This document shows positions 27,291 through 53,121 of a stretch of 64,000 bases of DNA, in pieces. The DNA comes from a bacterium (GTDB lineage: Bacteria; Sysuimicrobiota; Sysuimicrobiia; Sysuimicrobiales; Segetimicrobiaceae). Both the position numbers and the translations under genes were made by a program. The DNA is taken from positions 29,172-93,171 of the forward strand of contig DATGFS010000023.1 of the NCBI GenBank assembly GCA_035308905.1. The letters run 5' to 3'. Numbering within the stretch: position 1 is the stretch's first letter; each line of letters opens with the position of its first letter. The notes under the pieces were generated by a model. The model had not been told where the DNA came from. It was given only the letters and a program-made list of their open reading frames with translations, and did no database searches.

Positions 27291-28373
27291 GTGTTTTTTC
27301 GCGAACTGATCGGCCAGCGCGACGCCCGCGCGGTGCTGCAGGGGGCCCTCCGAAGCGGATGCGTGGCCCACGCGTACCTCTTTGTGGGCCCGGAAGGCGT
27401 CGGCCGCCGCGCCGCCGCGCTCGCCTTCGCCCAGGCCCTGCTCTGCGCGACCGGCTTCAATGACATGGTGGCCGGCGAGTCCGCCGACAGGCGGTCCGCC
27501 GGCGGAGACGACGCCTGCGGCACGTGCGCGGCGTGCCGGAAGGTCGCCGCGGGCGCGCACCCGGATCTCCGCATCATCGCCCCCGGGGGACGCACCGAGT
27601 CCGGCGCCGAGCGCCGCGCCGTCGGAATCGAGCAGATCCGCGATCTCAAGCGCGAGGCGTCCTACCCGCCCTACGAGGCCCGATGGAAGGTGTTCATCAT
27701 CGAGGACGCGGAGGCGATGCGCGCCGAGGCGGCCAACAGCCTGCTCAAGGTGCTCGAAGAGCCGCCCGCGCAGAGCGTGATCATCCTCATCTCCGAGTCC
27801 GCCTCGGCGCTCCTGCCGACGATCGTGTCCCGCTCCCAGATTGTGCGCTTCACATTCGTGCCGGCGGCGGAGATCGCCGCGGCCCTGACCGAGCGCGCCG
27901 GCGTTCCCGCGGCGCAGGCGCCGTTCCTCGGCGCGCTGGCCGGCGGACGGCCGGGGCTCGCGCTGCGGGAGTCGGCGGAGGGCGGGGCGGCGCTGGAGTT
28001 CCGCCAGGACGTGGTGAAGACGCTTGGAGCGGTCGCCGGCGGCGGACCGGTCAGGCGGCTCGAGGCCGCGGAAGCGGTCTCACGGCAGAAGGACGAGATC
28101 AACCGCTGGCTCGACACCGCCCTGCTCTGGATCCGCGACGTGGCGGTCTGGCAGGCGGCGCACGACCCGGCGCTGCTCGTGAACCTCGACCGCCGCGATC
28201 AGATCGCGGCGTGGGCCGAGCGCGCGAGGCCGGAGGGTGTGCGGCACGCGGCCGCGGCGATCGAGGGCGCCAAGACAAATTTGCAGCACAATGTCAACCC
28301 GCGCCTGGTCCTGGAGCATCTGTTTGCCGGCATCCACCTCGCGCCGGCCGACAAGCGGCCGGCAACCATGTAA
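27291..28373 (+). CDS. holB: DNA polymerase III delta-prime subunit with in-frame palindromic insertion
   Basis: Clamp-loader subunit, 360 residues. GTG start; LIGQRDARAVLQGALRSG, HAYLFVGPEGVGRRAAALAFAQALLC (P-loop-like), zinc cysteines CGTCAACRKV, HPDLRIIAP, IRDLKREASYPPYEARWKVFIIEDAEAM, LLKVLEEPP and SRSQIVRF are standard. Between the first Cys (LLC) and the CGTC cluster lies a 55-bp palindromic repeat coding GFxxMVAGESAxRRSAGG, in the exposed zinc-module loop. The last codons (ADKRPATM) and the stop come from a second copy in opposite orientation. So the gene carries two repeat insertions and remains open. Confidence 0.93.
   Translation: MFFRELIGQRDARAVLQGALRSGCVAHAYLFVGPEGVGRRAAALAFAQALLCATGFNDMVAGESADRRSAGGDDACGTCAACRKVAAGAHPDLRIIAPGGRTESGAERRAVGIEQIRDLKREASYPPYEARWKVFIIEDAEAMRAEAANSLLKVLEEPPAQSVIILISESASALLPTIVSRSQIVRFTFVPAAEIAAALTERAGVPAAQAPFLGALAGGRPGLALRESAEGGAALEFRQDVVKTLGAVAGGGPVRRLEAAEAVSRQKDEINRWLDTALLWIRDVAVWQAAHDPALLVNLDRRDQIAAWAERARPEGVRHAAAAIEGAKTNLQHNVNPRLVLEHLFAGIHLAPADKRPATM
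27451..27505 (+). repeat. Palindromic coding repeat, copy 1 (in holB)
   Basis: 55-bp element starting CCGGCTTC and ending GGCGG, with a hairpin-forming core (GCCGGCG ... CGCCGGC and CCGCC/GGCGG). It is 51/55 identical to the copy in proS at 52739-52793 and sits in the same codon phase, coding the same peptide. Related shorter copies are at 43418 and 28344. Confidence 0.85.
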
Positions 28374-28383
28374 TTAAAGCCGG
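28344..28383 (-). repeat. Palindromic repeat, copy 4 (3' end of holB, inverted, shorter core)
   Basis: Read on the minus strand it begins CCGGCTTTAATTACATGG and continues TTGCCGGC, matching the left half of the 55-bp element. The core is replaced by GCCGGCC-GCTTGTC-GGCCGGC, another perfect inverted repeat. It supplies the last codons and stop of holB and separates the convergent genes. Confidence 0.75.
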
Positions 28384-28422
28384 CCGACAATGGGCCTGCG
28401 GTGCGAGCCACGAGCGCGCCCG

Positions 28423-28644
28423 TTAGTGGATCGCGAGCCGAAGCAGGAAGAACAACACCGCCGCCGCCAGCACGATAAGCCACCACGGGATGGGGCGCCG
28501 CGGGCGCGCGGCGGCGCCCGGGTTCGCGCACGCCTCGCAGAAGTTTCCCGTCGAGAGCCGGACGAGGCATTCGGGGCACAGCGCCTTGCCGCAGCGCGAA
28601 CAGTAGCCGAGCGCCGCGCGGTCGGGATGGTTGACGCACTTCAT
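28423..28644 (-). CDS. Small B-box-type zinc-ribbon membrane protein
   Basis: A 73-residue protein. The N-terminal half has a B-box-like zinc site (CVNHPDRAALGYCSRCGKALCPECLV, then FCEAC) and the C-terminus is a single membrane helix (WWLIVLAAAVLFFLLRLAI). The start ATG overlaps the stop of nfo (ATGA), so it is translated with nfo. Such small tail-anchored zinc proteins are common in this kind of genome; no function is known. Confidence 0.8.
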   Translation of the reverse strand: MKCVNHPDRAALGYCSRCGKALCPECLVRLSTGNFCEACANPGAAARPRRPIPWWLIVLAAAVLFFLLRLAIH

Positions 28645-29558
28645 CGTGCGCGCACCGCCCTTCGCGGCGGCCGGCCCGTCCGCGTCGCGAGGCGCCGCCC
28701 GGGCATGCCGGCGGAGAGCAGGGCCCTCGCGCGCAGCGCCTTCAGCGTCATCACGTTGCGCCGGTCCGGGCCCTCGCGGTCGAACCCCGGCGTCTCGATG
28801 AGGCCGGGCAGATCGCGGAGCGCCGGATGGCCGAAGACGGCCCGGAACCCGTCGCGGCCGATCCCGCCTTCGCCGATGTTCTCGTGGCGGTCGAGCCGCG
28901 AGCCGAGCGCGCTCTTCGAGTCGTTGAAGTGCAGCACGCGCAGCCGCGTGAGGCCCACCTGCCGGTCGAAGGCGTCCACCATCGCGGCGACGCCCTCCGG
29001 CGTGCGAATGTCCCACCCGGCGGCGAAGAGGTGCGCGGTGTCGAGACATACGCCGAGCCGCGGGCTCCGCCCCGCGGCGTCGAGGACGTCGCGCAGCTGC
29101 TCGAAGGTACCCCCGATCGTGCCGCCGGCGCTGCCTTCCAGCAGCACCATCGCCTCCGATGAGCGCGTGAGCACGGTGCGCAGCGCGAGCGCCACGCGGT
29201 CGCAGCATTCGTCCCAGCCCGCGCCCCGCGTGCTGCCGAGATGCGTGATCGCCGCAAGCCCGCCGAGCGCATCCATGCCGCGCACCGTGTGCGCGAGCGA
29301 GTCGATGGACCGGCGGAACAACTCGGGATCGGCGGTGGCGAAATTGACGAGGTACGAGGCGTGCGCGACCAGCGGGTCCAGCCCGGCCCGCGCGCGGCGG
29401 CGCCGGAATTCAGCGATGTCGGCGGGATCGTACTCGATGAGGCGCCACTGCCGCGGGCTGCCGACGAAGATCTGCAGGCATTCGCAGCCGATCGCGGTCG
29501 CCCGCGGGACCGCCTCGTAGACGCGGCCGGCGACGGAGACGTGCGCGCCGATCGGCAT
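28641..29558 (-). CDS. nfo: Endonuclease IV-type AP endonuclease
   Basis: 305 residues of the AP endonuclease 2 family, a trinuclear-zinc TIM barrel that nicks 5' of abasic sites. Seen: GAHVSVAGRVYEAVPRATAIGCECLQIFVGSPRQW, LVAHASYLVNFAT, THLGSTRG, VLLEGSAGGTIGGTFEQL (Glu ligand), CLDTAHLFAAGWDI (Asp/His ligands), HFNDSKSALGSRLDRHENIGEGGIG, and LIETPG near the end. A C-terminal Arg-rich tail follows. It is divergent from the exporter gene at 29586. With endonuclease Q, Mfd and two clamp-linked proteins it adds to the base-damage repair set here. Confidence 0.94.
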   Translation of the reverse strand: MPIGAHVSVAGRVYEAVPRATAIGCECLQIFVGSPRQWRLIEYDPADIAEFRRRRARAGLDPLVAHASYLVNFATADPELFRRSIDSLAHTVRGMDALGGLAAITHLGSTRGAGWDECCDRVALALRTVLTRSSEAMVLLEGSAGGTIGGTFEQLRDVLDAAGRSPRLGVCLDTAHLFAAGWDIRTPEGVAAMVDAFDRQVGLTRLRVLHFNDSKSALGSRLDRHENIGEGGIGRDGFRAVFGHPALRDLPGLIETPGFDREGPDRRNVMTLKALRARALLSAGMPGRRLATRTGRPPRRAVRAR

Positions 29559-29585
29559 ATCGGGGGCTTCGCGGAGGATCGACGT

Positions 29586-30548
29586 TTGGACCTCCCGAAC
29601 CTGCGCACCATGTCCCCGCGCGCGCGCATCGCGGCCGATCTCTCGCTGGCGGCCGTCGCCGTCGTGTGGGGCACGACGTTTCCGCTCGGCAAGCTGGTGC
29701 TGCGGCACCTCGGGCCGTTTCAATATCTCGCGCTGCGCTTCGGCCTGGCCGCGGTGCTGATGGCGCCGCTCGCGTGGCGCGAGCGCGGACGCCTCACCCT
29801 CGACGGGATGCGCGCGGGCCTGCTGGCCGGCGCCGCACTGTTCGCCGGATACGCGCTGCAGACGGTCGGGCTCCGGTCCACGACCGCCGGCAACGCCGGT
29901 CTTATCACGGGCCTGAACGTCGTCATGATTCCCCTGATGCTGCTGGTCTGGCGCCGGCGCGCGCCGAGCCGGACGCTCGCCGCCGCGGTGCTGCTCGCGG
30001 TGGCGGGGTTGTGGCTCCTGCTGTGGCAGGGCGGACGGTTGGGCGCCGGCGACGCGCTCGTACTCGGCTGCGCCGCGGCGCTCGCGCTGCAGGTGATCAT
30101 TGTCGGACAGGCCGCGGCGTCGGTGCCGGCCGCGGCGTTTGCCTGCGTGCAAATCGCGACGGTCGCCGCGCTGGCGGGCGCCTGGGCCGTGGCCGCGGAA
30201 CCGGCTCCGGCGGCGGTGCCGGCGGCGGTCGGCGGCGCGATCGTCTTCATGGCGGTCGCGGCGACGCTCGGCGCGTACGTCGTGCAGGCGTGGGTGCAGC
30301 GAATCGTGTCGCCGACGCGCACCGGCCTGTTGTTCACCCTCGAGCCGGTCGCGGCGGTGGGCTTCGGCGTCGCGTGGCTCGGCGAGCCGTTCGGACCGCG
30401 CCAGGCCGCCGGGGCGGCGGCGATCTTGTTAAGCGTCGTGATCGGCGAGCTGGGGCGTGATCGGGAATGGGCGGGCCGGGCCGGCCGCGAGGCGGCGCCG
30501 GCGGGCATCACCGTCGACAAAGGAGGACGGTTCCATGGCATCGCGTGA
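29586..30548 (+). CDS. EamA/DMT-family transporter
   Basis: About 320 residues with ten predicted membrane helices in two EamA repeats (first AVAVVWGTTFPLGKLVLRHLGPFQYLALRFG; second ending GLLFTLEPVAAVGFGVAWLGEPFGPRQAAGAAAILLSVVI). DMT transporters export amino acids, nucleosides or drugs. TTG at 29586 is chosen because GGAGGA lies 7 nt upstream; the ATG at 29610 has no ribosome-binding site. The 3' end overlaps the next gene by 14 nt, so export may be linked to the Cys/Met enzyme, for example a thiol or amino-acid metabolite; that is inference. Confidence 0.87.
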   Translation: MDLPNLRTMSPRARIAADLSLAAVAVVWGTTFPLGKLVLRHLGPFQYLALRFGLAAVLMAPLAWRERGRLTLDGMRAGLLAGAALFAGYALQTVGLRSTTAGNAGLITGLNVVMIPLMLLVWRRRAPSRTLAAAVLLAVAGLWLLLWQGGRLGAGDALVLGCAAALALQVIIVGQAAASVPAAAFACVQIATVAALAGAWAVAAEPAPAAVPAAVGGAIVFMAVAATLGAYVVQAWVQRIVSPTRTGLLFTLEPVAAVGFGVAWLGEPFGPRQAAGAAAILLSVVIGELGRDREWAGRAGREAAPAGITVDKGGRFHGIA

Positions 30549-31719
30549 GCGGCGCGGATTTACCACGACCGCGATCCACGGGGGGCGGATCGAAGACGCC
30601 AACAAGTCCGTCGTCGCGCCGATCTATCAGACGGCGACCTTCAAATACGACAGCGTCGAAGACGGCGCGCGCCTCGCCGCGGAGAAGGGCCCCGGTTACA
30701 TCTACACGCGGTGGGGCAATCCGACGACGGATCTCTTCGAGCAGAAGGTCGCGCTGCTCGAGGGCGCCGAGGGGGCGCTGGCCGCGTCGTCCGGCATGGC
30801 GGCGATCGCCACGGCCGTCGTAGGCTCGCTCAAGGCCGGCGATCACCTCATCGCGCCGAAGGCCGTGTACCAGGCGGCGTTCCAGCTCTTTACCGGCGTG
30901 CTGCCGAGGTTCGGGGTCGAGGCCACGGTGCTCGACGATCCCGACGTGTCCGCGTACGAGCGGGCGCTCAGGCCGAGCACGCGCCTGCTCTACGTCGAAA
31001 CGCCGAACAACCCGCTGCTCGGCATCATCGATATCGCCGGCGTGGCGGCGCTCGCGCGCGCCCACGGGGCGCGCACGGTGGCCGACAACACATTTGCGAC
31101 GCCGTACAACCAGCAGCCGCTCGCGCTCGGCGTCGATCTCGTCTGTCACAGCGCGACAAAATATCTCGGCGGGCATCACGACGTCACGGCCGGCGTGATC
31201 GCCGGCTCGCGCGAAGCCCTCCGGCCGTGCGTGGGAGCGCTGCGTGTCTTCGGCGGCGTCCTCGACCCGTTCGCGGCCTTCCTGCTGATCCGCGGCGTCG
31301 CGACGCTTGGGCTGCGCGTGGAACGGCACAACGCAAACGCGCTCGCGCTGGCGCGGCACTTGAGCGCGCACCCGAAGGTCGCCAAGGTGCACTATCCGGG
31401 TCTGCCGGGGCACCCGCGCCACGAGATCGCCGCACGGCAGATGCCCGGCGGGTTCGGCGGCATGATGAGCATCGAAGTAGCCGGCAACGTCGCCGCCGGC
31501 GCGCGCTGCGTCGAGGCGCTGCGCGTCGCGAAGCTGGCGGTGAGCCTCGGCGGGATCAGCACGCTCGTCACCCACCCGGCGTCGACCACGAGCGTCAACA
31601 TGCCGCGGGAGATCCGGCTCGCCGCGGGCATCAGCGACGGGCTGATCCGGATCTCGGTCGGGATCGAGGACGTGGACGATCTGATCGACGACTTCACCCA
31701 GGCGCTCGACAAAGTCTAG
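30535..31719 (+). CDS. Cys/Met-metabolism PLP-dependent enzyme (gamma-lyase/synthase family)
   Basis: 394 residues of the trans-sulfuration fold-type I family. Motifs: TTAIHGGRIEDANKSVVAPIYQTATF, YIYTRWGNPTTDLFE (PLP phosphate contacts from the partner subunit), ASSGMAAIAT, YVETPNNPLLGIIDI, DNTFATPYNQQPLALGVDLVCHSATKYLGGHHDVTAGVI with the Schiff-base Lys, and SLGGISTLVTHPASTTS. Could be cystathionine gamma-lyase, methionine gamma-lyase or O-acetylhomoserine sulfhydrylase; sequence alone does not decide. ATG follows AAAGGAGGA. Confidence 0.93.
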   Translation: MASRERRGFTTTAIHGGRIEDANKSVVAPIYQTATFKYDSVEDGARLAAEKGPGYIYTRWGNPTTDLFEQKVALLEGAEGALAASSGMAAIATAVVGSLKAGDHLIAPKAVYQAAFQLFTGVLPRFGVEATVLDDPDVSAYERALRPSTRLLYVETPNNPLLGIIDIAGVAALARAHGARTVADNTFATPYNQQPLALGVDLVCHSATKYLGGHHDVTAGVIAGSREALRPCVGALRVFGGVLDPFAAFLLIRGVATLGLRVERHNANALALARHLSAHPKVAKVHYPGLPGHPRHEIAARQMPGGFGGMMSIEVAGNVAAGARCVEALRVAKLAVSLGGISTLVTHPASTTSVNMPREIRLAAGISDGLIRISVGIEDVDDLIDDFTQALDKV

Positions 31720-31754
31720 TCCGGGCCACGCCGCCCTCAGCGGGCAGGTTCCGC

Positions 31755-31784
31755 TTGACTTTCATTCCCATATAAGAATATAAT
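31755..31784 (+). promoter_or_regulatory. Promoter of the arsR-led stress cluster
   Basis: TTGACT (31755-31760), 18 nt, TATAAT (31779-31784); the arsR ATG at 31794 is only 9 nt after the -10, with no ribosome-binding site, so the transcript is leaderless or nearly so. This is the best-matching promoter in the window. Confidence 0.7.
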
Positions 31785-31793
31785 GTTCCCGCG

Positions 31794-32168
31794 ATGCCGA
31801 GAGCGGCGACAACGACCGACGTGTTCAACGCGATCGCCGAGCCGCGGCGGCGTGAGATCGTCGACGCGCTCCTCGACGGCCGGGCCCACACGGTCGGGGA
31901 GGTCGTCGACCGGCTCCGGATTCCGCAGCCGTCGGTCTCGAAGCATCTCGGCGTCCTTCGGAAAGTGGGAATCGTCTCAGTGAACAAGTCCGGCCGGCGC
32001 CGTCTCTATCGGCTCAACGCGGAGGAGTTGAAGCCGGTCCACGATTGGGTGCAGACCTACGCGCGGCTTTGGGAGCACCAACTCCACCGGATCAAGGAGC
32101 GGGCCGAGCAGGCGGCGCGCGAACGAGCGGGGCACAAACGCGAACGACCAGCACACGAGGAGGGATGA
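31794..32168 (+). CDS. ArsR-family transcriptional regulator
   Basis: 124-residue winged helix repressor. The N-terminus DVFNAIAEPRRREIVDALLDGRAHTVGEVVDRLRIPQPSVSKHLGVLRKVGIV is a complete ArsR helix-turn-helix; the wing is GRRRLYRL. It lacks metal-binding cysteines, so it belongs to the non-metal group that controls SRPBCC/AHSA1-like genes. The C-terminus is a basic/acidic tail. Its TGA overlaps the ATG of the SRPBCC gene. It probably autoregulates the six-gene cluster. Confidence 0.93.
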   Translation: MPRAATTTDVFNAIAEPRRREIVDALLDGRAHTVGEVVDRLRIPQPSVSKHLGVLRKVGIVSVNKSGRRRLYRLNAEELKPVHDWVQTYARLWEHQLHRIKERAEQAARERAGHKRERPAHEEG

Positions 32169-32638
32169 CCGTGGTGACGACCGCGTCAGAGCTGTCGGTT
32201 CAGACGTTCGAGGTGGCGAAAGAAGAGACGATCGCGGCGCCGATCGAGATCGTGTTCGAGACGATGCTTGAGCAGCTGGGCCCGTCGTTCGAGCCCGCCG
32301 AAGGGATGTCCCTGCACATGGTGCTCGAGGCGTGGCCGGGCGGCCGCTGGTACCGGGATCTCGGGAACAAGGCGGGCCATCTGTGGGGGCACGTGCAGGT
32401 CATCAAGCCGCCGAGCCTCCTGGAAATCTATGGGCCGCTGGCGATGTCCTATCCCGCGGTCTCGCACGTGCAGTGCCGGCTGACCGCGGACGGCGACCGG
32501 ACGCGCCTCAAGTTTGTCCACCGCGCGATGGCATACGCGCCCGAGCCCCGCGACGATTTCGCCCAGGGCTGGGCCCGCGTGCTGACGAGCATTCGTGAAG
32601 CCGCCGAGCGCCGGCGCGCATCCGGTGAGGGACGCTAG
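32165..32638 (+). CDS. SRPBCC / AHSA1-like protein
   Basis: 157 residues. The SRPBCC core is visible from VAKEETIAAPIEIVFETMLEQLGPSF through LEAWPGGRWYRDLGNKAGHLWGHVQVIKPPSLLEIYGPLAM and RTRLKFVHRAM. The pairing with an upstream overlapping arsR is a very common module in which ArsR represses the SRPBCC gene. The fold binds hydrophobic ligands; substrate unknown. Next gene starts directly after its stop, so all are cotranscribed. Confidence 0.88.
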   Translation: MTVVTTASELSVQTFEVAKEETIAAPIEIVFETMLEQLGPSFEPAEGMSLHMVLEAWPGGRWYRDLGNKAGHLWGHVQVIKPPSLLEIYGPLAMSYPAVSHVQCRLTADGDRTRLKFVHRAMAYAPEPRDDFAQGWARVLTSIREAAERRRASGEGR

Positions 32639-33364
32639 ATGGCGGAGCGTCACAGGGTCGTCCCCCACGCCACGTGGCTCGAGGCGCGACGAAGGTTCCT
32701 GAGCAAAGAAAAGGCGTTCACGCGGCTGCGCGACCGGCTCAACCGGGAGCGCCGCAGCCTGCCGTGGGAGCAAGTGGACAAGGCGTACGTCTTCGAGGGG
32801 CCGGACGGGAAGGAGACGCTCGCGCACCTCTTCGACGGCCGGCACCAGCTCGTTGTCTACCACTTCATGTTCGCCCCGGAGTGGGACGCCGGGTGCCCGC
32901 ACTGCTCGTTCTGGGCGGACAACTTCGACGACAACGTCGTGCACCTGGCCCACCGGGACGTCACGATGGTCGCGATCTCGCGCGCACCGTATCGCAAGCT
33001 CGCGGCCTACAAGAAGCGGATGGGCTGGAGCTTCAGATGGCTCTCGTCGTCCGGCACCGACTTCAATTTCGACTACCAGGCCTCGTTCCGGCCGGCAGAC
33101 CTGGCCAAGAGGCGCGCGTTGTACAACTTCAAGGTGCAAGATCCGGGCTTCTCGGACCGCGAGGGGGTGAGCGTCTTCGTCAAAGGTCCGCGAGGCGCCG
33201 TTTTTCATACCTACTCGACGTACGCCCGCGGCATCGACATGCTGAATACCGCCTACCACTACCTCGATCTCGTACCGAAGGGCCGCGATGAAGCCGGCCA
33301 CGCCTTTTCGCAGTTCTGGGTTCGGCGGCACGACGAATACGACCGGCGGACCGGCCGGCGATAG
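32639..33364 (+). CDS. DUF899 thioredoxin-like protein (copy 1)
   Basis: 241-residue DUF899 protein, thioredoxin fold. Seen: HATWLEARRRFLSKEKAFTRLRDRLNRERRSLPW, the redox-type loop EWDAGCPHCSFWADNF (CPHC), VAISRAPYRKLAAYKKRMGWSFRWLSSSGTDFNFDY, and FHTYSTYARGIDMLNTAYHYLDLVPKGRDE. Function is unknown; the CxxC motif suggests thiol redox chemistry in the cytosol. Unlike copy 2 (34192) its insert region between FNFDY and the C-terminus is different. Confidence 0.87.
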   Translation: MAERHRVVPHATWLEARRRFLSKEKAFTRLRDRLNRERRSLPWEQVDKAYVFEGPDGKETLAHLFDGRHQLVVYHFMFAPEWDAGCPHCSFWADNFDDNVVHLAHRDVTMVAISRAPYRKLAAYKKRMGWSFRWLSSSGTDFNFDYQASFRPADLAKRRALYNFKVQDPGFSDREGVSVFVKGPRGAVFHTYSTYARGIDMLNTAYHYLDLVPKGRDEAGHAFSQFWVRRHDEYDRRTGRR

Positions 33365-33373
33365 GAGGGCGCG

Positions 33374-34174
33374 ATGTCGGAACCGCACCGCGTCATGTCC
33401 CGCGAGATGAGTACGGCCGACAACTGGCAGGGCAGCGCCGGGCCGGCCCTCGCGGGTCTCGCCGGCGTCGCCGGCGCCGCGTGGATCTACCTGGCCACCG
33501 GCGCCGGGCTGGGCTCAGCTATGCGCGGGACGGACATGGCCGGCGGCGGCATGATGCCGATGGCGCCGGCCTGGACACCCGGCTACGCGGTGGTGATGCT
33601 CAGTATGTGGATCGTCATGATGACCGCGATGATGCTGCCGACTTCGACGTTCGCCGTGCTCAGGGTTGCCGGCCGGGCAGGCATCGAGCGCGCGGCGGGG
33701 TTCGCGGCCGGCTACCTCGCGATCTGGGCGGGGTTCGGCGCCGCGGCAGCCTCGCTCCAATGGGCGCTCGACTCGGCGCATCTTCTCTCGGGGGCGATGG
33801 CGCTCCAAAATGCGGCGCTCGCCGGCCTCGTGACGGCGGCCGTCGGAGTGTACCAGTTGACCCCGCTCAAGCGCGCGTGCCTGGAGCGCTGCCGCGCGCT
33901 GGACGGTTGTCTGGCGAGGGTCGAGGCCCGGCGGCCGTGGGGCTCGGTGGGGTCCGGGCTCCATTACGGCGTCTCGTGTCTCGGCTGCTGCGCAGCGTTG
34001 ATGGGCCTGCTGTTTGTCGGCGGCCTGATGAGTATCCCGTGGGTGGCCGCGATCGCGGTCTGGGTGCTGGCCGAAAAAACCCTGCCCTGGGGCGGCCGCG
34101 TCGCGCGGCTCGGCGGGGCCGGGCTCATTGCTGCGGGGGCTGTGGCGTTCGCGATCGCTCTGGCCCACGCGTGA
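33374..34174 (+). CDS. DUF2182 integral membrane protein (putative metal-binding)
   Basis: 266 residues with about six membrane helices. The Met-rich region MAGGGMMPMAPAW precedes the second helix, and the DUF2182 hallmark MLSMWIVMMTAMMLPT follows; further on QLTPLKRACLERC and HYGVSCLGCCAALMGLLFVGG carry conserved Cys. The family is annotated as predicted metal binding, based on Met/Cys clusters. It lies between two DUF899 genes, so redox or metal stress is a reasonable context guess. Stop followed by AGGAGGAG for the next gene. Confidence 0.85.
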   Translation: MSEPHRVMSREMSTADNWQGSAGPALAGLAGVAGAAWIYLATGAGLGSAMRGTDMAGGGMMPMAPAWTPGYAVVMLSMWIVMMTAMMLPTSTFAVLRVAGRAGIERAAGFAAGYLAIWAGFGAAAASLQWALDSAHLLSGAMALQNAALAGLVTAAVGVYQLTPLKRACLERCRALDGCLARVEARRPWGSVGSGLHYGVSCLGCCAALMGLLFVGGLMSIPWVAAIAVWVLAEKTLPWGGRVARLGGAGLIAAGAVAFAIALAHA

Positions 34175-34191
34175 GCAGGAGGAGAGCAACA

Positions 34192-34971: not shown

Positions 34972-35010
34972 TCCGCAGGGGACCGCGAGACGACAAGGAG
35001 TGGTGCGTAG

Positions 35011-35484: not shown

Positions 35485-35511
35485 CCCGCGTTCGCGGGCT
35501 CCGCGCAGGGG

Positions 35512-36261: not shown

Positions 36262-36296
36262 GCGCGTCTCGTACGCTGCCGGAGGGGAACCGTCCT

Positions 36297-42464: not shown

Positions 42465-43424
42465 GTGGGCACGCTGCTGCTCGCCGCGATCGCGCTGGCC
42501 GGCGCCCCGGCCGCGTCGGTAGCCTACATCCTGGCCGCCGAACTCGTGCTCGGCCGGCTGCCGGTCCGTTCGCGGCGGGCCCTGCGTCCGTGGGTCTGGC
42601 TGGCGCCGGCGCTGGTGTTCGTCGCCGTCTTTCTCGTCTACCCGACGCTCGACACGGTCGTGCTGAGCGTGCGCGACGCGACCGGCGCCGCGTGGATCGG
42701 GCTCGCCAACTACGTCTACGCGTTCGAGAGCCGAGAGGCGCTGATCGCGCTGCGCAACACCGTCGTCTGGCTGGTTCTCTTCACCGGCGTGGTCGTGGCG
42801 GGGGGCCTCGGGATCGCCGCGCTGGCGGAGCGCGTGCGATACGACGCCGCGGTGCGGGGCATCGTGTTCCTGCCGATGGCGCTGTCGTTCACGGCGGCGG
42901 GGGTGATCTGGAAGTTCGTCTATGAGTTCCGCCCGGCCGGCGCGCCGCAGATCGGCCTCATGAACGCGGCGCTCGGCGCCCTGCTGCCCGGCTTCGAGCC
43001 GCGGGCGTGGCTGGTCGGCGCCCCCTGGAACACGCTGTGTCTCATCGCCGTCGGCGTGTGGACCTGGGTCGGATTCGCCACGGTCGTGTTCGCCGCCGCG
43101 CTCAAGGCCGTGCCGGCCGAAATCGTGGAGGCCGCGCGCGTCGACGGCGCCGGCGAGTGGCGCGTGTTCTTGAATATCACGCTGCCGCTTCTCGGGCCGA
43201 CCACCGGCGCGGTCGCCACGGCGATGGTCATCACGGCGCTCAAGGTCTTCGACGTGGTCTACGTGATGACGAGCGGCAACTTCGACACCGACGTCCTCGC
43301 GACGCGGATGTATCATGCGCTGTTCGTGGATCAGCAACTCGGCCGGGCGGCCGCCCTGGCGGTGATCCTGCTCGCCGCGACGGTGCCGGTCATGGCGGTC
43401 AACCTCCGCCGCCTGCGTCAATGA
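42465..43424 (+). CDS. Sugar-type ABC transporter permease (MalF-like)
   Basis: 319 residues, about six to seven helices. N-terminal TM segment then WVWLAPALVFVAVFLVYPTLDTVVLSVRD, characteristic of MalF-type permeases, and the EAA loop EIVEAARVDGAGEWRVFLNITLPLLGP. GTG start 3 nt after the binding-protein stop. The TGA stop falls within the 49-bp repeat copy 3, so the C-terminus (RRLRQ) may have been set by the insertion; other members often continue a few residues further. Confidence 0.92.
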   Translation: MGTLLLAAIALAGAPAASVAYILAAELVLGRLPVRSRRALRPWVWLAPALVFVAVFLVYPTLDTVVLSVRDATGAAWIGLANYVYAFESREALIALRNTVVWLVLFTGVVVAGGLGIAALAERVRYDAAVRGIVFLPMALSFTAAGVIWKFVYEFRPAGAPQIGLMNAALGALLPGFEPRAWLVGAPWNTLCLIAVGVWTWVGFATVVFAAALKAVPAEIVEAARVDGAGEWRVFLNITLPLLGPTTGAVATAMVITALKVFDVVYVMTSGNFDTDVLATRMYHALFVDQQLGRAAALAVILLAATVPVMAVNLRRLRQ

Positions 43425-43466
43425 CATCTTTGCCGGCGAGTCCGCCGGAGGCGGTCCGCCGGCGCG
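43418..43466 (+). repeat. Palindromic repeat, copy 3 (between ABC permease genes)
   Basis: Starts TCAATGACAT and continues TTGCCGGCGAGTCCGCCGG, AGGCGGTCCGCCGGCG, matching the 55-bp element in holB and proS from position 7 on, with two mismatches near ACATCTTT and a 1-bp deletion in the loop. Here the phase is different: it contributes the stop of the first permease and most of the 58-nt gap to the second. Confidence 0.8.
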
Positions 43467-43482
43467 GCGACGCCGTCCGCTG

Positions 43483-44316: not shown

Positions 44317-44331
44317 CGTAGGGTAGACGGC

Positions 44332-44383
44332 TTGACGGCCCACCGTCCCCGGCCCATAATGTGGTTGTTTGATGGTCCGACCA
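44332..44383 (+). promoter_or_regulatory. Promoter and FadR-type operator of the oxalate locus
   Basis: TTGACG (44332-44337), 17 nt, CATAAT (44355-44360). Just downstream, about +6 to +16, is the palindrome TGGTCCGACCA (44373-44383), which fits the TGGT-N-ACCA operator of FadR-subfamily GntR regulators. Binding there would block transcription, consistent with autoregulation by the gene that follows. Confidence 0.6.
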
Positions 44384-44423
44384 CTGGGCCAGATCGGACC
44401 GGCTCAGTCCGGGGGCGATCGCC

Positions 44424-45221
44424 ATCGCGCCAAGTACCGCGTCACCCATCCAGGCCGATCTTGGTCCCGTCAGGAAGACCAAGGTCTATGCCGAGGTCGC
44501 CGCGCAGATTCAGCGCCTGATCGCCGAGGGACGTCTCAAGCCCGGCGACAAGCTTCCCCCCGAACGTGAACTGGCGGAGATTTTCGGCGTCAGCCGCAGC
44601 TCCGTCCGCGATGCGATCCGCGTGCTCGAGGTGCAGGGACTCGTCGAGCCCCGGCATGGGGACGGCACCCTCGTCCGCGAGATTCCGATCGATCGCCTCG
44701 TCCGGCCGCTCGCCGACGCGCTGACCGCCGGCAAGGACCGCCTCGCCGATCTGTTCGACATGCGCAAAATGCTCGAACCGCCGCTGGCTCGGGCCGCGGC
44801 GTTCCGGGCGACGGACGACGACGTGCGCGCGCTCGAGCAGATCGTGGAGCGCCAGACCCGGCGGGTCCGGGCCGGCGAACTCGCCCTCGAGGACGACAAC
44901 GAGTTCCACTACCGCATCGCCACGGCCGCCAAGAACCAGGTCGTGCTGCGAACGATGGACGTGCTGATGGACCTGCTGCGCGACAGCCGCGCGCGCTCGC
45001 TGCAGGGTCCCGGCCGCGCCGAGAAGTCCCTCGAGGGCCATCGCCGGATACTGGACGCGATCCGCCGGCGGGATCCCGACGCCGCGGCGCAGCGCATGCG
45101 CGGGCACATCGAGGAGATCGAAGGAACGCTGTTTCCGGAGAGCCGTGCGGCAGGAGGCCGCGAAGCGGCCGGAGGTCCTGCGCGAGACGGGACAGAATCG
45201 CCGGCGGGTTCCCGAGGATGA
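44424..45221 (+). CDS. FadR-subfamily GntR transcriptional regulator, start codon unclear
   Basis: GntR-type winged helix (KVYAEVAAQIQRLIAEGRLKPGDKLPPERELAEIFGVSRSSVRDAIRVLEVQGLVEPRHGDGTLV) followed by an FCD effector domain with metal/ligand residues (DMRKMLEPPLARAAA, NEFHYRIATAAKNQV, EGHRRILDAIRRRD). The reading frame is open back to a TGA at 44370, but there is no ATG, GTG or TTG in frame before the helix-turn-helix; the first GTG (44622) is inside it. ATC at 44424, 8 nt after GGGGG, is used here as a placeholder. A rare start or a frameshift in the leader is possible. Likely controls the oxalate genes. Confidence 0.8.
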   Translation: MAPSTASPIQADLGPVRKTKVYAEVAAQIQRLIAEGRLKPGDKLPPERELAEIFGVSRSSVRDAIRVLEVQGLVEPRHGDGTLVREIPIDRLVRPLADALTAGKDRLADLFDMRKMLEPPLARAAAFRATDDDVRALEQIVERQTRRVRAGELALEDDNEFHYRIATAAKNQVVLRTMDVLMDLLRDSRARSLQGPGRAEKSLEGHRRILDAIRRRDPDAAAQRMRGHIEEIEGTLFPESRAAGGREAAGGPARDGTESPAGSRG

Positions 45222-45253
45222 CGCGTCGGTAAGCAGCAGCGAGGAGGCAGGGG

Positions 45254-47658: not shown

Positions 47659-47688
47659 GCGGCGCGCGCAAACAGGAGGGGTTGACCA

Positions 47689-48717
47689 ATGGACAGTCCT
47701 GAACTCGCGGCGATGCCCGTCCCGGTGCTCGAGCCGATCAAGGGCGTCAAGCGGGCGCCGCTCGAGGAGTACTTTACCTCCGGCCACCGCACGTGCCAGG
47801 GGTGCGAGTCGGCCCTGGTCATGAAGCTGATGGTGAAGGCCGCCGGACCGCGCACCGTGGTGCTCGGCAGCACGGGCTGCATGTACGTCGCCAACACGAC
47901 GTACTACAGCACGCCGTGGGTTGTGCCGTGGATGCACACCCAGCTCGGCTCGTCGGGCTCCGCGGCGGTGGGCACCGCGGCCGGCTACACGGCGCTGATG
48001 CGCAAGGGCCGGATCAAGCAGGAGCCGATCAACATCATCTCGTTCTGCGGCGACGGCGGCGGAGCGGACATGGGCCTGTCGGCGATCTCCGCGGCGCTGC
48101 AGCACACCGACTACAACCATCTGATTCTGCTGTACGACAACGAGTCGTACGCCAACACCGACATCCAGGTGTCCGGCAGCAGCCCCTACGGTGTGCACAC
48201 GACGTTCTCGCCGCCCGGCAAGGCCAAGCGGATCCTGCACAAGCGCTGGAAGAAGAACATGGCGGCGATGCTGGCGGCCGGGCACTCCGAGTGCAAGTAC
48301 GTCGGGACGGTCGACGCGTCGTACGCGGTGGACTTCATGAACCGCATCCGGAAGGCCCTCAGCATCGGCGGGCCCACCTTCATCCACTCGCTCGACCCGT
48401 GCCCGAAGGGCTGGGACTACGACCCGATGCTCTCCCACGAGCTCGGCGAGCTGGCCGTGCTGACCGGCGTGTGGCCGCTCTTCGAAGTCGAGAACCACGT
48501 GCTCAAGATGTACGGCAAGAGCAAGGCCATCGTCGAGGGGCGGCAGAAGCGGCTGCCGGTGCGGGACTACCTCTTGAAGCAGGGCCGCTTCGCGCACTTC
48601 ACGGAAGACGACATCGACTACTTCCAGGCCAAGATCGACGAGATGTGGACGAAGTGGCTGGTGCCGGGCGTGCTGCCGTTTTCGACCGACGTGTTGAACG
48701 ACCAGCCGCCTGCTTAG
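47689..48717 (+). CDS. Oxalate oxidoreductase beta subunit
   Basis: 342 residues; TPP- and 4Fe-4S-binding beta subunit. Cluster ligands: RTCQGCES (two Cys) plus STGCMY and SLDPCPKGW. TPP/Mg site: SFCGDGGGADMGLSAISAALQHTDYNHLILLYDNESYANTDIQ (GDG...N motif). Low Cys count elsewhere. ATG after AGGAGG. The three subunits together match the gamma-delta, alpha, beta gene order reported for Moorella. An antiporter of the oxalate/formate family follows, as expected for oxalate import. Confidence 0.88.
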   Translation: MDSPELAAMPVPVLEPIKGVKRAPLEEYFTSGHRTCQGCESALVMKLMVKAAGPRTVVLGSTGCMYVANTTYYSTPWVVPWMHTQLGSSGSAAVGTAAGYTALMRKGRIKQEPINIISFCGDGGGADMGLSAISAALQHTDYNHLILLYDNESYANTDIQVSGSSPYGVHTTFSPPGKAKRILHKRWKKNMAAMLAAGHSECKYVGTVDASYAVDFMNRIRKALSIGGPTFIHSLDPCPKGWDYDPMLSHELGELAVLTGVWPLFEVENHVLKMYGKSKAIVEGRQKRLPVRDYLLKQGRFAHFTEDDIDYFQAKIDEMWTKWLVPGVLPFSTDVLNDQPPA

Positions 48718-48831
48718 GGGGCGCCGGGCAGGGCGCCGGTCCGCACGGCTAGGGGGACCGCGCCGCACAATCGAATAGCGCTGCGTGACCGCGTGATCCG
48801 AAGTGACGCGAAAGCGACACGAGGTGATCGC

Positions 48832-48990
48832 ATGATCGGGGCCTTCGAAGGGCTTCTGCGCGACGTCCGGATGGACCGTTTCATCCGGGCTCGACGGGGG
48901 CCCTTTGATTTTCTTCCGCCGCGCACGACGCGCTCGGTCCGCATGCTCCGGGGGCACCTACGCTGCAGGCGAAGGGTGGTGGACTCATGA
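48832..48990 (+). CDS. Small ORF upstream of and overlapping the antiporter (possible leader peptide)
   Basis: 52 codons; ATG is spaced well from AGGTGAT. The translated product is Arg-rich (RMDRFIRARRGPFDF ...) with no similarity that I recognise. Its stop overlaps the antiporter ATG (ATGA), so it may couple translation. A hairpin (CCGGATG ... CATCCGG, 48867-48888) lies within it. The rest of the 48718-48986 gap shows no promoter. Could be a chance ORF. Confidence 0.35.
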   Translation: MIGAFEGLLRDVRMDRFIRARRGPFDFLPPRTTRSVRMLRGHLRCRRRVVDS

Positions 48991-50303
48991 GTACCGCGGC
49001 AGCCGACCACACGCAGGAATGGATGCTGAAATACCGCTGGTGGATTCTCACGGCGGCGGTGATCGCGCAGATCCCGAACGCGAACCTCCAATACGCGTGG
49101 ACGCTCTTTCCCACGCATCTCGTCAAGGACGGGCTCGGGAAGCTCAGCGCGGTGCAGGGAGTCTTTGCGCTGTTCGTGCTGCTGGAGACGTGGCTCGTAC
49201 CGGTCGAAGGCTGGCTGGTCGACCGGATCGGGCCGCGCCTGCTGACGATCGTCGGCGGCGTCCTGATCGGCGTCGCCTGGGTTATGAGCGCCCAGGTAAG
49301 GACGCTCGGGGAGCTGCTGTTCTGGTACGGCGTGGTCGGTGGGATCGGCGGCGGCATCATCTACGGCGCCACGATCGCGACCGCGCTGAAATGGTTCCCC
49401 GACAAGCGCGGGCTCACGGCCGGGCTGGTGGCCGCGGGGTTCGGCGCGGGCGCCGCGCTCTCGGTCGCGCCGATCGAGAACGTGATCAACCACGCCGGCT
49501 GGCGCGCGGCGTTCTTCCAGTTCGGCATCCTGCAGGGCGTCATCGTCGTGCTCGCCGCGCTCTTCCTGCAGGCGCCGCCGGAGACGTTCAAGGTCGCCGG
49601 GATCATCAGGAAGGTGTCCAGGCACGTCCGGCAGGCGGTCACCGACAGCACCCCCGCGCAGATGCTGCGCACGCCGCACTTCTACGTGACCTACGTGATG
49701 ATGATGCTGGTCGTGGGCGGCGGGCTGATCCTCACCGCGCAGCTGGGGCCGATCGCCAAGTCGACCGGCGTCGACAAGACAATCGTGATGTGGGGGTTGA
49801 CCGCGCTCGTGCTTGCGCTGCAGGTCGACCGCGTCCTCAACGGCATCACGCGGCCGATCTGGGGCTGGGTGTCGGACCACATCGGACGCGAGAACTCGAT
49901 GTTCATCGCCTTCGGGATTCAGGGGTTCTCCATCCTCTGGCTGCTCACGCTGCTCAAGAACCCGGTCGGGTTCGTCGTCGCCTCGGGCGCGGCGTTCTTC
50001 TTCTGGGGCGAGGTGTACTCGCTCGTGCCGGCGCTGGTGGCCGACCTCTTCGGGCGCAGGTACGCCGCGACGAACTATGGACTGATGTACACGGCGAAGG
50101 GGTTCGCGTCGATTTGGGCGGGCCCGCTCGCGGCGATGCTGTTCGAGGCCCAGCACACCTGGACGCTCGTGTTCTACATCGCGGCGATTGCGAACTTCAT
50201 CGCCGCGTTGATCGCGCTGTTCGTCCTGAAGCGCCTGCCGATGCCCGGGGCGGCCGCCGCCCCATCGAGGATGATGCCGGCCACCGCCGGCGGCGGCGGG
50301 TAA
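48987..50303 (+). CDS. OFA-family MFS transporter (OxlT-like oxalate/formate antiporter)
   Basis: 438 residues, 12 membrane segments. OFA signatures: WWILTAAVIAQIPNANLQYAWTLF, the first-loop GPRLL and TATALKWFPDKRGLTAGLVAAGFGAGAALSVAPI motif, and RPIWGWVSDHIGRENSMFIAFG. It lacks any fused domain. Family members exchange oxalate for formate or act on related dicarboxylates. With the preceding oxalate oxidoreductase operon the likely substrate is oxalate; that is inference from context. A terminator hairpin is at 50333. Confidence 0.9.
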   Translation: MSTAAADHTQEWMLKYRWWILTAAVIAQIPNANLQYAWTLFPTHLVKDGLGKLSAVQGVFALFVLLETWLVPVEGWLVDRIGPRLLTIVGGVLIGVAWVMSAQVRTLGELLFWYGVVGGIGGGIIYGATIATALKWFPDKRGLTAGLVAAGFGAGAALSVAPIENVINHAGWRAAFFQFGILQGVIVVLAALFLQAPPETFKVAGIIRKVSRHVRQAVTDSTPAQMLRTPHFYVTYVMMMLVVGGGLILTAQLGPIAKSTGVDKTIVMWGLTALVLALQVDRVLNGITRPIWGWVSDHIGRENSMFIAFGIQGFSILWLLTLLKNPVGFVVASGAAFFFWGEVYSLVPALVADLFGRRYAATNYGLMYTAKGFASIWAGPLAAMLFEAQHTWTLVFYIAAIANFIAALIALFVLKRLPMPGAAAAPSRMMPATAGGGG

Positions 50304-50332
50304 CGTCCGGCGCACTGTGCCATGCCGACGAG

Positions 50333-50350
50333 GGGGGCCGGACGGCCCCC
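50333..50350 (+). terminator. Terminator hairpin after the oxalate locus
   Basis: 7-bp stem GGGGGCC / GGCCCCC with a GGAC loop followed by TTCGCCTTG. The T-tract is weak. It lies 30 nt past the antiporter stop and just upstream of the next promoter. Confidence 0.6.
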
Positions 50351-50356
50351 TTCGCC

Positions 50357-50385
50357 TTGACAGGCCGCGGATCGATTGTTAGTTA
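50357..50385 (+). promoter_or_regulatory. Promoter of the sulfurtransferase leader
   Basis: TTGACA (50357-50362), the only perfect -35 in the window, 17-nt spacer, TAGTTA (50380-50385). The GTG at 50391 lies 5 nt beyond, and transcription probably starts at it. Confidence 0.6.
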
Positions 50386-50390
50386 CTAGA

Positions 50391-50462
50391 GTGACCATGA
50401 CGCGGATGCGTTCGGCGTACAACCCTCGTCGATGTATCTGTCCTGCGCGGAGGCCGGAGTAG
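50391..50462 (+). CDS. Leaderless cysteine-containing uORF
   Basis: 23-codon ORF starting GTG (or ATG at 50397), with no ribosome-binding site, directly after the promoter. The peptide includes RRCICPARR: two Cys codons one apart, flanked by Arg. It is followed by about 175 nt of structured leader before a CysA-type thiosulfate sulfurtransferase. Cys-codon leaderless uORFs before sulfurtransferase operons act as cysteine attenuators in mycobacteria; here the same role is inferred. Confidence 0.5.
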   Translation: MTMTRMRSAYNPRRCICPARRPE

Positions 50463-50563
50463 CCTTCGCCGGGACCGACGTTCTCCTGTCTGTCCCTCGG
50501 TTCGGCGGGTTTCGAAGGCACACCAACATTCCGGTCTCCGCCTTTCTCGTGTGAGGGGACAGG

Positions 50564-50602
50564 CCGCCCGTCCGGCGCTGCGCGCCGGGGACGGGCGGCC
50601 GG
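50564..50602 (+). promoter_or_regulatory. Strong leader hairpin upstream of the sulfurtransferase
   Basis: 11-bp outer stem GGCCGCCCGTC and 6-bp inner stem CGGCGC with a 3-nt loop and a 2-nt bulge. No T-run follows, so it is not a simple terminator. The 50463-50563 part also folds (GCCTTCG / CGAAGGC at about 50463 and 50514). Together they leave the GGGAGGG ribosome-binding site just downstream. The 335-nt gap 50304-50638 thus holds a terminator, promoter, uORF and structured leader. Confidence 0.5.
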
Positions 50603-50638
50603 CGCACGCCTTCATCCAAAACAGGGAGGGTTTGACCG

Positions 50639-51499
50639 ATGCCACAGGGCTACGCGCACGACGTGTTGGTGGAGACCGGCTGGCTCGCCGAGCATCTCGA
50701 CGATCCGGCCGTGCGGGTCGCGGAAATCTCGGAAGACACGACGCTGTACGGCCAGGGGCATATTCCCGGCGCCGTGCACTTCAATTGGCAGACGCAGCTG
50801 CAAGATCCCGTCCGGCGCGACTGGATCGATCAGGAGCAGATCGAGACGCTGCTCGGGGCGCACGGCGTCGGCAACGACACGACGCTCGTCCTGTACGGAG
50901 ACAAGAACAACTGGTTCGCCACGTACACGTTCTGGCTGTTGAAGATGTACGGCGCGGACAATCTCCGCGTGCTGAACGGCGGCCGCGCGAAGTGGATCGC
51001 GGAAGGGCGGCCCGCCGTGACCGACGTCCCGTCCCACCCCAAGGCGCGCTACGAGGCCAAACCCGCCGATGCGTCGATCCGCGCGTTTCGCGACCAGGTA
51101 CAGGCCGCGCTCGGCAAGTCGGCGCTCGTCGACGTGCGGTCGCCCCAGGAGTACAGCGGCGAGCTGATCGCGATGCCGGCGTACCCGCAGGAGGGCGCGC
51201 AGCGGGGCGGCCACATTCCGGGCGCGCAGAACATCCCGTGGGGCCAGAACGTGCGGGAGGACGGGACGTTCAAATCGGCGGAAGAATTGAAGAAGCTGTA
51301 CGAGGGCAAGGGCGTCACGCCCGACAAGAACGTGATCGCCTACTGCCGGATCGGCGAGCGCTCCTCGCTGACCTGGTTCACGCTGAAGTATCTGCTCGGC
51401 TACCCCGCCGTCCAGAACTACGACGGCTCGTGGACGGAATGGGGCAGCCTCGTCGGGGTGCCGATCGAAAAGCCGGCGCTCCGGCAGGCCAAGGGCTGA
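50639..51499 (+). CDS. Thiosulfate sulfurtransferase (rhodanese), CysA type
   Basis: 286 residues, two rhodanese domains. Domain 1 ([44 protein letters not shown]) is inactive; domain 2 has the active-site loop YCRIGERSS with the nucleophile Cys. CRIGERSS is typical of the actinobacterial CysA2/SseA-like thiosulfate:cyanide sulfurtransferases. Transfers sulfane sulfur from thiosulfate to thiols. ATG after GGGAGGGTTTGACCG. Controlled by the Cys-containing leader described above, by inference. Ends 76 nt before the proS promoter. Confidence 0.93.
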
Positions 51500-51575
51500 C
51501 CGGCTCGGACACGGCGGGCGGCGCGGGGGCCGCAGCGGCCGCCCCCGCGCCCGTTCCCGACCGCGCGCGCCTTGT

Positions 51576-51605
51576 TTGACGCTCTCGAAGCAGGCCTGCT
51601 AGAAT
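51576..51605 (+). promoter_or_regulatory. Promoter of proS, leaderless configuration
   Basis: TTGACG (51576-51581), 18 nt, TAGAAT (51600-51605), then 7 nt to the ATG at 51613. No ribosome-binding site. The -10 to ATG distance equals that of nadE. Confidence 0.65.
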
Positions 51606-51612
51606 CGCCGTG

Positions 51613-53121
51613 ATGTCGCGGTCAGCGGCCCGTCCCGAAGACGAGCGCGAGTTCGTCAAAGAGATTCCCTCCAAAGCCGAGCACTTTTCCGACTGGTACA
51701 CCGCCGTCGTGCTCAAGGCGGAGCTTGCCGACTACTACCCGGTGCGGGGCTGCATCGTCGTCCGGCCGTACGGCTACACGATTTGGGAATTGATCCAGGC
51801 GGGCCTCGACCGCCGCTTCAAGGCGACCGGTCACACCAACGCCTACTTTCCGCTGTTCATCCCGCGGAGCTTCCTCGAGCGCGAGGCAAAGCACGTCGAG
51901 GGCTTTGCGCCCGAAGTCGCATGGGTCACTCACGGGGGCGGCGAGGAGCTGAGCGAGCCGCTGGCCGTCCGCCCGACCTCCGAGACCGCCATCGGACACA
52001 TGTACGCGCGCTGGATCCGGTCGTACCGCGACCTGCCGGTCCTCATCAACCAGTGGTGCAACGTGGTGCGCTGGGAGAAGGCGACGCGCCCGTTCCTGCG
52101 CACGATGGAGTTCCTGTGGCAGGAGGGCCACACCGCCCACCGGAACGCGGAAGAGGCCGAGGCGGAAGCCCGCCAGATGCTCGAGGTCTACCGCGACTTC
52201 GCCGAGACCGACGCGGCGATCCCGGTGCTGTCCGGCCGCAAGCCGGAGAGCGAGAAGTTTCCCGGAGCCGAGCGGTCGTACACGATCGAGGCGCTCATGC
52301 CGGACGGCCAGGCGCTGCAGTCCGGGACCTCGCACGACCTCGGCCAGAATTTCGCCCGCGCCTTCGACATCAAGTTTCTGGACAGCGACAACGTCGAGAA
52401 GTACGCGTACACGACGTCGTGGGGCGTGAGCTGGCGGATCCTCGGCGGGATGATCATGGTGCACGGCGACGACCGCGGCCTGGTGCTGCCGCCCGCGCTC
52501 GCCCCGTTTCAGGTGGTCGTGGTGCCGATCCTGAGCGGGCCGAAGCGCGACGACGTCCTCGCCGCGGCGCGGGATTTGACCCGCCGCCTCAGCGCGACCG
52601 TGCGCGTCCGGCTCGACGACCGGACCGAGGTGACGCCGGGCTGGAAGTACAACGATTGGGAGATGCGCGGCGTCCCGCTGCGGCTCGAGATCGGGCCGCG
52701 GGACCTGGCGCAGCAACAGGTGGTGCTGGCGCCGCGGGCCGGCTTCGATAACATGGTTGCCGGCGAGTCCGCCGGCAGGCGGTCCGCCGGCGGCGCCAAG
52801 CAGTCCGTGCCGATCAGCGGGCTCGAGCAGTCGCTGCCGGCCGCGCTCGCCGCGGTGCGCCAGGCCCTGTTCGACCAGGCGAAGCGGTACCTTGACGCGC
52901 ACATCGTCGCGGCCGCGTCGCTTGCGGAGCTGGTGGAAGCGGTCGCGACCCGCCGCGGCTTCGTCCGCGCGGTGTGGTGCGGGACGGAGGCGTGCGAGCA
53001 GTCGATCCGTAAGGCGAGCGGCGCGTCGCCGCGGGTCATCACCGAGGAGCCCGCGGACGGACCGTGCCTCATCTGCGGCGCGCCGGCAAGGGAAGTCGTG
53101 TACTTCGCCCGCGCGTATTGA
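51613..53121 (+). CDS. proS: Prolyl-tRNA synthetase (archaeal/eukaryal type) with in-frame palindromic insertion
   Basis: About 502 residues of the shorter type-3/eukaryote-like ProRS lacking the editing insertion. Class II motifs: 1 IQAGLDRRFKATGHTNAYFPLFIP, 2 RWEKATRPFLRTMEFLWQEGHTAH, TSHDLGQNF and 3 VLPPALAPFQVVVVPI. C-terminal zinc-type Cys CGTEACEQS ... CLICGAP remain. Within the anticodon-binding domain (VVLAPRA then AKQSVPISGLE) a 55-bp palindromic repeat inserts GFxxMVAGESAxRRSAGG in the same codon phase as in holB. ATG 51613 is 7 nt after the -10; a GTG at 51610 is also in frame. Confidence 0.96.
   Translation: MSRSAARPEDEREFVKEIPSKAEHFSDWYTAVVLKAELADYYPVRGCIVVRPYGYTIWELIQAGLDRRFKATGHTNAYFPLFIPRSFLEREAKHVEGFAPEVAWVTHGGGEELSEPLAVRPTSETAIGHMYARWIRSYRDLPVLINQWCNVVRWEKATRPFLRTMEFLWQEGHTAHRNAEEAEAEARQMLEVYRDFAETDAAIPVLSGRKPESEKFPGAERSYTIEALMPDGQALQSGTSHDLGQNFARAFDIKFLDSDNVEKYAYTTSWGVSWRILGGMIMVHGDDRGLVLPPALAPFQVVVVPILSGPKRDDVLAAARDLTRRLSATVRVRLDDRTEVTPGWKYNDWEMRGVPLRLEIGPRDLAQQQVVLAPRAGFDNMVAGESAGRRSAGGAKQSVPISGLEQSLPAALAAVRQALFDQAKRYLDAHIVAAASLAELVEAVATRRGFVRAVWCGTEACEQSIRKASGASPRVITEEPADGPCLICGAPAREVVYFARAY
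52739..52793 (+). repeat. Palindromic coding repeat, copy 2 (in proS)
   Basis: 55 bp, starts CCGGCTTC, ends GGCGG, 51/55 identical to copy 1 with the same phase (one base into a codon) and the same peptide. The surrounding gene is not disrupted. The typical family sequence here is a short beta-hairpin turn, so the insertion sits in a loop. Confidence 0.85.

Follow-up and report, generated by a model that had tools for sequence, protein, structure and literature searches.

A very short hairpin repeat family, probably a non-autonomous mobile element, with in-frame copies in holB and proS of a Segetimicrobiaceae bacterium

The stretch of DNA analysed here, hereafter the window, comprises 64,000 nucleotides of contig DATGFS010000023.1 (assembly GCA_035308905.1, positions 29,172 to 93,171) from a bacterium of the family Segetimicrobiaceae, and carries four copies of a very short hairpin repeat, two of which lie in frame within conserved genes. 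The gene context was assigned with a simple purpose-built gene caller, which gives the window a coding density of 92.7%. The gene holB (27291–28373, plus strand; PF13177 and PF09115), encoding the delta prime subunit of DNA polymerase III, hosts copy 1 (27453–27503, plus strand), a member of a subfamily with a second hairpin, whose head occupies 27453–27470 and whose hairpin part occupies 27471–27503. The net gain is 48 bp, or 16 codons. The 3' end of holB lies within copy 2 (28343–28381, minus strand), a short form inverted with respect to the gene, with its head at 28364–28381 (minus-strand reading) and its stem-loop at 28343–28363. The variant head of copy 2 supplies the TAA stop codon of holB, in agreement with an earlier note on this DNA, which had an inverted copy forming the 3' end of the gene; in the holB homologue P0123 the matching tail reads RPATMKLKP, without that TAA stop.

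The second host, proS (51610–53121, plus strand), encodes prolyl-tRNA synthetase and is the sole full-length proS found in the genome; the search otherwise matched once, and weakly, in an rlmN-like gene, where the sequence surrounding the insert itself was hit. Copy 4 (52741–52791, plus strand; head 52741–52758, hairpin part 52759–52791) belongs to the same double-hairpin subfamily, is in frame, and likewise adds a net 48 bp, or 16 codons. On re-comparison, the sequences at 27451–27505 in holB and 52739–52793 in proS are identical at 51 of 55 positions and share gene-strand orientation and codon phase, just as the earlier note had it; the insertions are indeed in frame, with a net length of 48 bp rather than the 55 bp given there. 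The encoded inserts, LCATGFNDMVAGESADRRSAGGDDA in holB and LAPRAGFDNMVAGESAGRRSAGGAKQSV in proS, share a peptide, which is the product of one subfamily read in one phase and not a property of the whole family. Copy 3 (43414–43463, plus strand, coordinates by covariance model), a double-hairpin member with a diverged head, lies between permease genes, as had been noticed, and also provides the TGA stop codon of the upstream permease gene. This site (43418), compared separately, has no copy in G002, one of two congeners.

A covariance model of the short form recovers these four as clear members in the window, with E values from 1.6e-19 to 1.1e-5 (28343–28381, minus; 27453–27503, 52741–52776 and 43414–43463, plus); for copy 4 the model match ends at 52776, and the unit extends by sequence to 52791. 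Six extra matches are weak (E 0.006–0.081). Weak model matches on both strands at 33660–33716 (E 0.009 and 0.018) are perhaps a decayed copy.

In the whole genome (G000; 4.0 Mb in 81 contigs), a 19-base head motif allowing up to 3 mismatches gives 88 matches, and the same pattern reversed gives none; a few of the 88 copies (e.g., L085 and L089, which have no hairpin) may be chance coding matches. In the typical unit an 18-nt constant head, with the consensus GGCTTTGATTTCATGGTK, leads into an 8-bp stem with a loop of 5 nt, and the form met most often adds 36 bp. ATGGTK stands directly before the stem, and mostly G or A directly after it. At least seven of the eight stem pairs form in 39 of the 88 copies with a loop of 5 and in 11 with a loop of 6, and in the other 38 the core is longer or interrupted. 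Other loop lengths tried (0–19) fit 0–8 copies each, except for 18 copies at loop 1, for which the palindromic stem sequence is the suspected cause. Stem covariation was examined in alignment A3, which holds 39 of the 43 copies (out of 88) with at least six of eight pairs and thus leans towards structure. Both partners have changed in four of the eight pairs, giving 15 cells, e.g., GCGCGTGG/CCACGCGC and GCGGGCCG/CGGCCCGC against the common GCCGGCCG/CGGCCGGC; among 500 shuffles none reaches 15 cells and three reach four pairs. Six copies folded as single-stranded DNA lie 2.4 to 4.5 standard deviations below shuffled sequences. Copies are also found nested inside other copies (L029 and L091) and in tandems of about 36 bp (L067 and L129), one close pair among the 88 is in opposite orientation (L095, 133 bp apart), and L107 and L137 sit inside a different repeat at GCC^GGC. 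We note a longer core variant, with GCTTTGGCTC...GCAGGCCCAG, in L061, L076, L083, L109, L110 and L125, which looks like another repeat placed in the loop.

The distribution of the family was followed through 43 genomes of the phylum, including the two congeners (G001 and G002). A longer pattern has 93 matches in G000, 13 in G002, 2 in G001, one each in G005 and G017 and none in the remaining 38, and its reversed control has a single match, in G013. The covariance model (E ≤ 0.1), which was trained on G000 copies and favours that genome, gives at least 146 matches in G000, where the weak end may include noise, as well as 66 in G002, 19 in G001 and 1–18 in each of 22 other genomes. The head pattern with 2 mismatches, run on 100 relatives, matches in 17 genomes (52 in G000, 6 in G002 and 1–4 in the others), with single matches in each of two genomes for the reversed control. 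The further copies that the earlier note had sought thus exist: the family occupies some 90 to 150 places in the genome, about half of them within genes. Beyond the relatives, the exact pattern has four single matches in unrelated taxa of a species-genome collection, likely due to chance (the collection may omit records of the own genome). Carriage by phage or plasmid was rejected, the exact pattern having no match in the viral contigs searched and the proS copy none among the plasmids or phages searched. A known RNA family was rejected on the Rfam results, which are no match on any window copy at the gathering threshold, and just two weak, unrelated matches on 10 loci at E up to 1.

The 88 copies divide into 42 inside genes, 14 at gene edges and 32 in intergenic DNA. 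Of the 42 within genes, 20 lie no more than 60 nt from either end of the gene, where 14% would be expected (p = 1.7e-7); 29 are oriented opposite to the gene and 13 along it (p = 0.02). The unit is free of stop codons in four of its six phases, and the in-gene copies are distributed 7, 5 and 1 over the phases of the same strand and 18, 10 and 1 over those of the opposite strand; the rare phase is the one that contains the stop, a rarity that is partly circular, since the gene caller requires open frames. Read in other phases, the unit yields PATMSSKP in purD, GNHEINAG in an S15 peptidase and PASMKSKP at the end of a deformylase. That four phases are used in genes indicates that it is the DNA that spreads, not a peptide, and phase diversity, empty sites (below) and nesting together show this. 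Pfam models applied to 20 of the 22 genes with interior copies left three unmatched, and identified as hosts, besides holB and proS, indole-3-glycerol phosphate synthase, PurD, a NuoL-like subunit, an OppC permease, a TGS GTPase and a PucR regulator. In the 3'-edge cases inspected (seven of eight), the copy stands at a real gene end, and no gene split by a copy was seen, the intergenic cases having been partly checked.

Empty sites were sought for 99 copies (up to 4 mismatches), of which 20, representing 18 distinct sites, have both flanks in the relatives' DNA examined. At 17 of the 18 an aligned relative lacks the copy; several of the intergenic alignments are too diverged for a base-exact junction. 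At the 18th, in the rlmN-like gene, G000 and G002 share the GCC^GGC junction, and the copy of G002 is inverted. The five clean coding junctions gain 36, 48, 48, 54 and 60 bp, and the frame is kept in all five. The 16-residue segment of ProS is absent from all 21 aligned homologues, one of which (P0002) has at the same place a 12-residue insert that, judged from the protein, reads as an inverted short form, and another (P0019) a different insert beside the site. For holB, the segment is precisely missing from 19 of 23 homologues, while a related segment of 15 residues is present in P0122 and different inserts occupy the place in P0134, P0137 and P0140; in G001 holB has a short, different insert there. 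Also at copies, PurD of G001 is 20 residues shorter, the S15 peptidase of G002 is 18 residues shorter, and the deformylase of G002 is without the 12-residue tail.

The junctions can be read in 58 classifiable copies of the 88. The left flank ends in CC (C at 64% and 74%), and the right-hand GGC (86%, 98% and 93%) closes the stem of the unit itself, which leaves the left flank and the empty sites to inform on the target. A palindromic target, GCCGGC, would explain how either orientation can occupy one site, of which there are two cases, the rlmN-like gene (G000 and G002) and proS (the window and P0002, the latter from protein).

The earlier note placed the two inserts in surface loops, and structure prediction points the same way through low-confidence model segments. 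In the holB model (mean predicted local distance difference test score, pLDDT, 74.8), the insert holds the sole internal segment below pLDDT 50 (residues 60–70). The AlphaFold2 model of proS, built on a shallow alignment, is poor overall (mean pLDDT 45.7), and only its anticodon domain was considered, in which the insert (377–394, pLDDT below 50) falls between two strands of the better-modelled domain; in an alignment to the solved prolyl-tRNA synthetase 1h4q, it falls in a gap of 17. Placement in a surface loop is predicted from these segments and the alignment, and the host proteins are predicted to tolerate the insert.

We consider this very short hairpin repeat family likely to be a selfish mobile element that spreads non-autonomously. 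The hairpin would be recognised, probably as single-stranded DNA, by a trans-acting enzyme, which would join it at palindromic GCC^GGC sites. Persistence in genes would be favoured by main forms with lengths divisible by three and open reading in four of the six phases, and selection would remove harmful insertions, leaving those near protein ends and in loops. We infer movement and selfishness, and the family may be active today. The earlier note had called the repeat selfish and tolerated by its host proteins; we would keep both terms, the former as part of this interpretation and the latter as a prediction, and the searches for Y1 and TnpB genes yielded no mobilising enzyme.

Several observations weigh against the interpretation as a mobile element. 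No Y1 transposase (PF01797) was found in G000, G001 or G002, with positive controls matched in 5 of 14 named genomes; the count is 0 of 3 for the genus and 1 of 12 for the family (G005, which carries one pattern match), in draft genomes of 96–98% estimated completeness. Two TnpB-like genes (PF07282) are present in G000 (L291, C35:43437–43634; L292, C46:20862–21059), with no Y1 partner in the genome, and the ends of both are unlike the unit. No parent insertion sequence (IS) was found, Y1 and TnpB genes being those sought. A clear target-site duplication is missing: each end bears a GGC, one of them part of the stem, and where GGC flanks both ends (32 of the 58 classifiable copies) it could be a duplication or the unit's own sequence. 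The alignment used for the stem changes was selected partly by pairing. Net lengths divisible by three, counted for 59 of the 88 copies, are not significantly enriched in genes (24 of 27 inside against 24 of 32 outside, p = 0.20); selection on length was set aside on this result, and the description of the repeat as frame-preserving holds for the five clean coding junctions and not as an enrichment. No within-species polymorphism was seen, which leaves current activity unproven.

An origin from TnpB, IS605 or IS607 elements was rejected: across the two 8-kb stretches, the one strong model match is some 2 kb away from a TnpB gene and falls at the end of a different gene, and the ends of the TnpB genes are unlike the unit.

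Three alternatives concern the host proteins rather than the DNA. The peptide GFxxMVAGESAxRRSAGG might be a functional module, spread and kept for its function, and it is common to holB, its relative P0122 and proS; other genes, however, read the unit in other phases and strands, 32 of the 88 copies are intergenic, and a conserved peptide function, rejected for the family on its phase diversity, is very improbable. That the segment is an ancestral part of the host proteins, lost in relatives, is hardly credible: P0122 shares the holB insert, but 22 of 23 holB homologues and every aligned ProS homologue are without the segment, and the same DNA, dispersed in unrelated genes and between genes, refutes it, so that the earlier view of the segment as not ancestral stands. 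Short GC-rich intragenic hairpins resemble bypassing elements, and the insert might be skipped at the RNA or translation level, by splicing or ribosome bypassing, such that the proteins never contain it. Against this, the five clean coding insertions all preserve the frame, and the inspected 3'-edge copies and the search for split genes (partly checked in intergenic DNA) gave the results described above; we regard skipping as highly unlikely.

A further alternative retains mobility and assigns the family to known elements, as a diverged member of the superfamily of repetitive extragenic palindromes (REPs) and Rickettsia palindromic elements (RPEs), spread by an IS200/IS605-type transposase (Y1; REP-associated tyrosine transposase, RAYT) that is now lost or was missed. 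The REPs tagged with CGTC have stems of 8–9 bp and loops of 4–5 nt, occur within genes, including those for tRNA synthetases and DNA polymerase, and show no association with a transposase (PMC3733652). The unit described here has a stem and loop within these dimensions, and resembles these REPs in size, its single 8-bp hairpin with a loop of 5, its intragenic copies, its patchy distribution and the want of an associated transposase. It differs from them in having no CGTC tag, no A-T pairs at the base of the stem (the first pairs are G-C and C-G), no CCA tail and a long constant head of 18 nt; and head-to-head dimers, predominant among CGTC-tagged REPs, are represented by the one opposite-orientation pair. 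The REPs tagged with GTAG and associated with RAYT are also short hairpins in many copies, intragenic in some species, whereas no GTAG tag stands beside the stem in the logo of the 88 copies, and the three genus genomes have no Y1 transposase. Membership of the REP/RAYT group was rejected on the missing tag and the missing Y1, and descent from such elements seems unlikely.

To our knowledge, no enzyme that mobilises RPEs has been identified. The likeness to RPEs drawn in the earlier note is sound, in that both are multi-copy palindromes of limited lineage, dispersed and in frame in unrelated conserved genes (here holB, proS, purD, the S15 peptidase and the deformylase, against empty relatives). 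RPEs are described as about 150 bp long and as encoding a conserved peptide (PMC10969869). The family here, compared by description, is GC-rich, measures 36–60 bp, uses four main phases and has one hairpin with an 18-nt head, and only its double-hairpin copies in holB and proS have a conserved peptide. Among RPEs, the short RPE-4 and RPE-6 are classed as CGTC repeats (PMC3733652), unlike the family here, which is missing the tag. Miniature inverted-repeat transposable elements, as outlined in PMC10969869, are likewise non-autonomous and multi-copy and have a junction preference; the present unit shows only GCC/GGC as possible terminal inverted repeats and no clear target duplication, is much shorter, and is GC-rich. 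As PMC10969869 and PMC3733652 indicate, short palindromes in frame in conserved genes are already known, so the kind is not new; our searches of open full-text papers turned up no description of such repeats in this lineage, as the earlier note had supposed. The lineage is probably Sysuimicrobiota (CSP1-3): related sequences carry the label Armatimonadota or simply bacterium, and the genomes of the phylum comprise a single order, in accord with PMC11604079. It is doubtful that the family constitutes a new minimal class of mobile DNA, in which a single hairpin of 36 bp, led by a fixed stretch of 18 nt, would move as a single strand into palindromic GCC^GGC sites, with no transposon-type parent; its length and stop-free phases would let this parasite insert into essential proteins, in either orientation, without disturbing the frame. 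Rickettsia and certain REP-rich bacteria provide the known cases of such in-frame invasion. The present one concerns a GC-rich genome of 4 Mb, from a phylum that is probably uncultured; the unit is smaller, its junction can be read, close relatives have empty sites, the stems covary and four phases are usable. The long-standing questions of how these elements move and of how proteins accommodate them become testable by ordinary comparison and simple complementation.

Other repeats and features lie nearby. A second hairpin repeat family, GGACTAGCCGGCGGGATGCGCCGGCGTC, whose stems also vary on both sides, occurs at 26700–26727, at 59418–59445 and in L107, and is in frame in a thymidylate kinase-like gene (26255–26953), where G001 and G002 are shorter; it has 6 copies in the own loci plus the window, 3 in 400 kb of G002 and 0 in 386 kb of G001. 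A third repeat, GGCAGGAGGCCGCGAAGCGGCCGGAGGTCCTGC, lies at 45148–45195, at the 3' end of the gene 44622–45221, and is matched many times in G000, G001 and G002, in some places as tandems spaced near 42–50 bp. A flavin mononucleotide (FMN) riboswitch (RF00050, 88.5 bits) is located at 57383–57535 on the plus strand.

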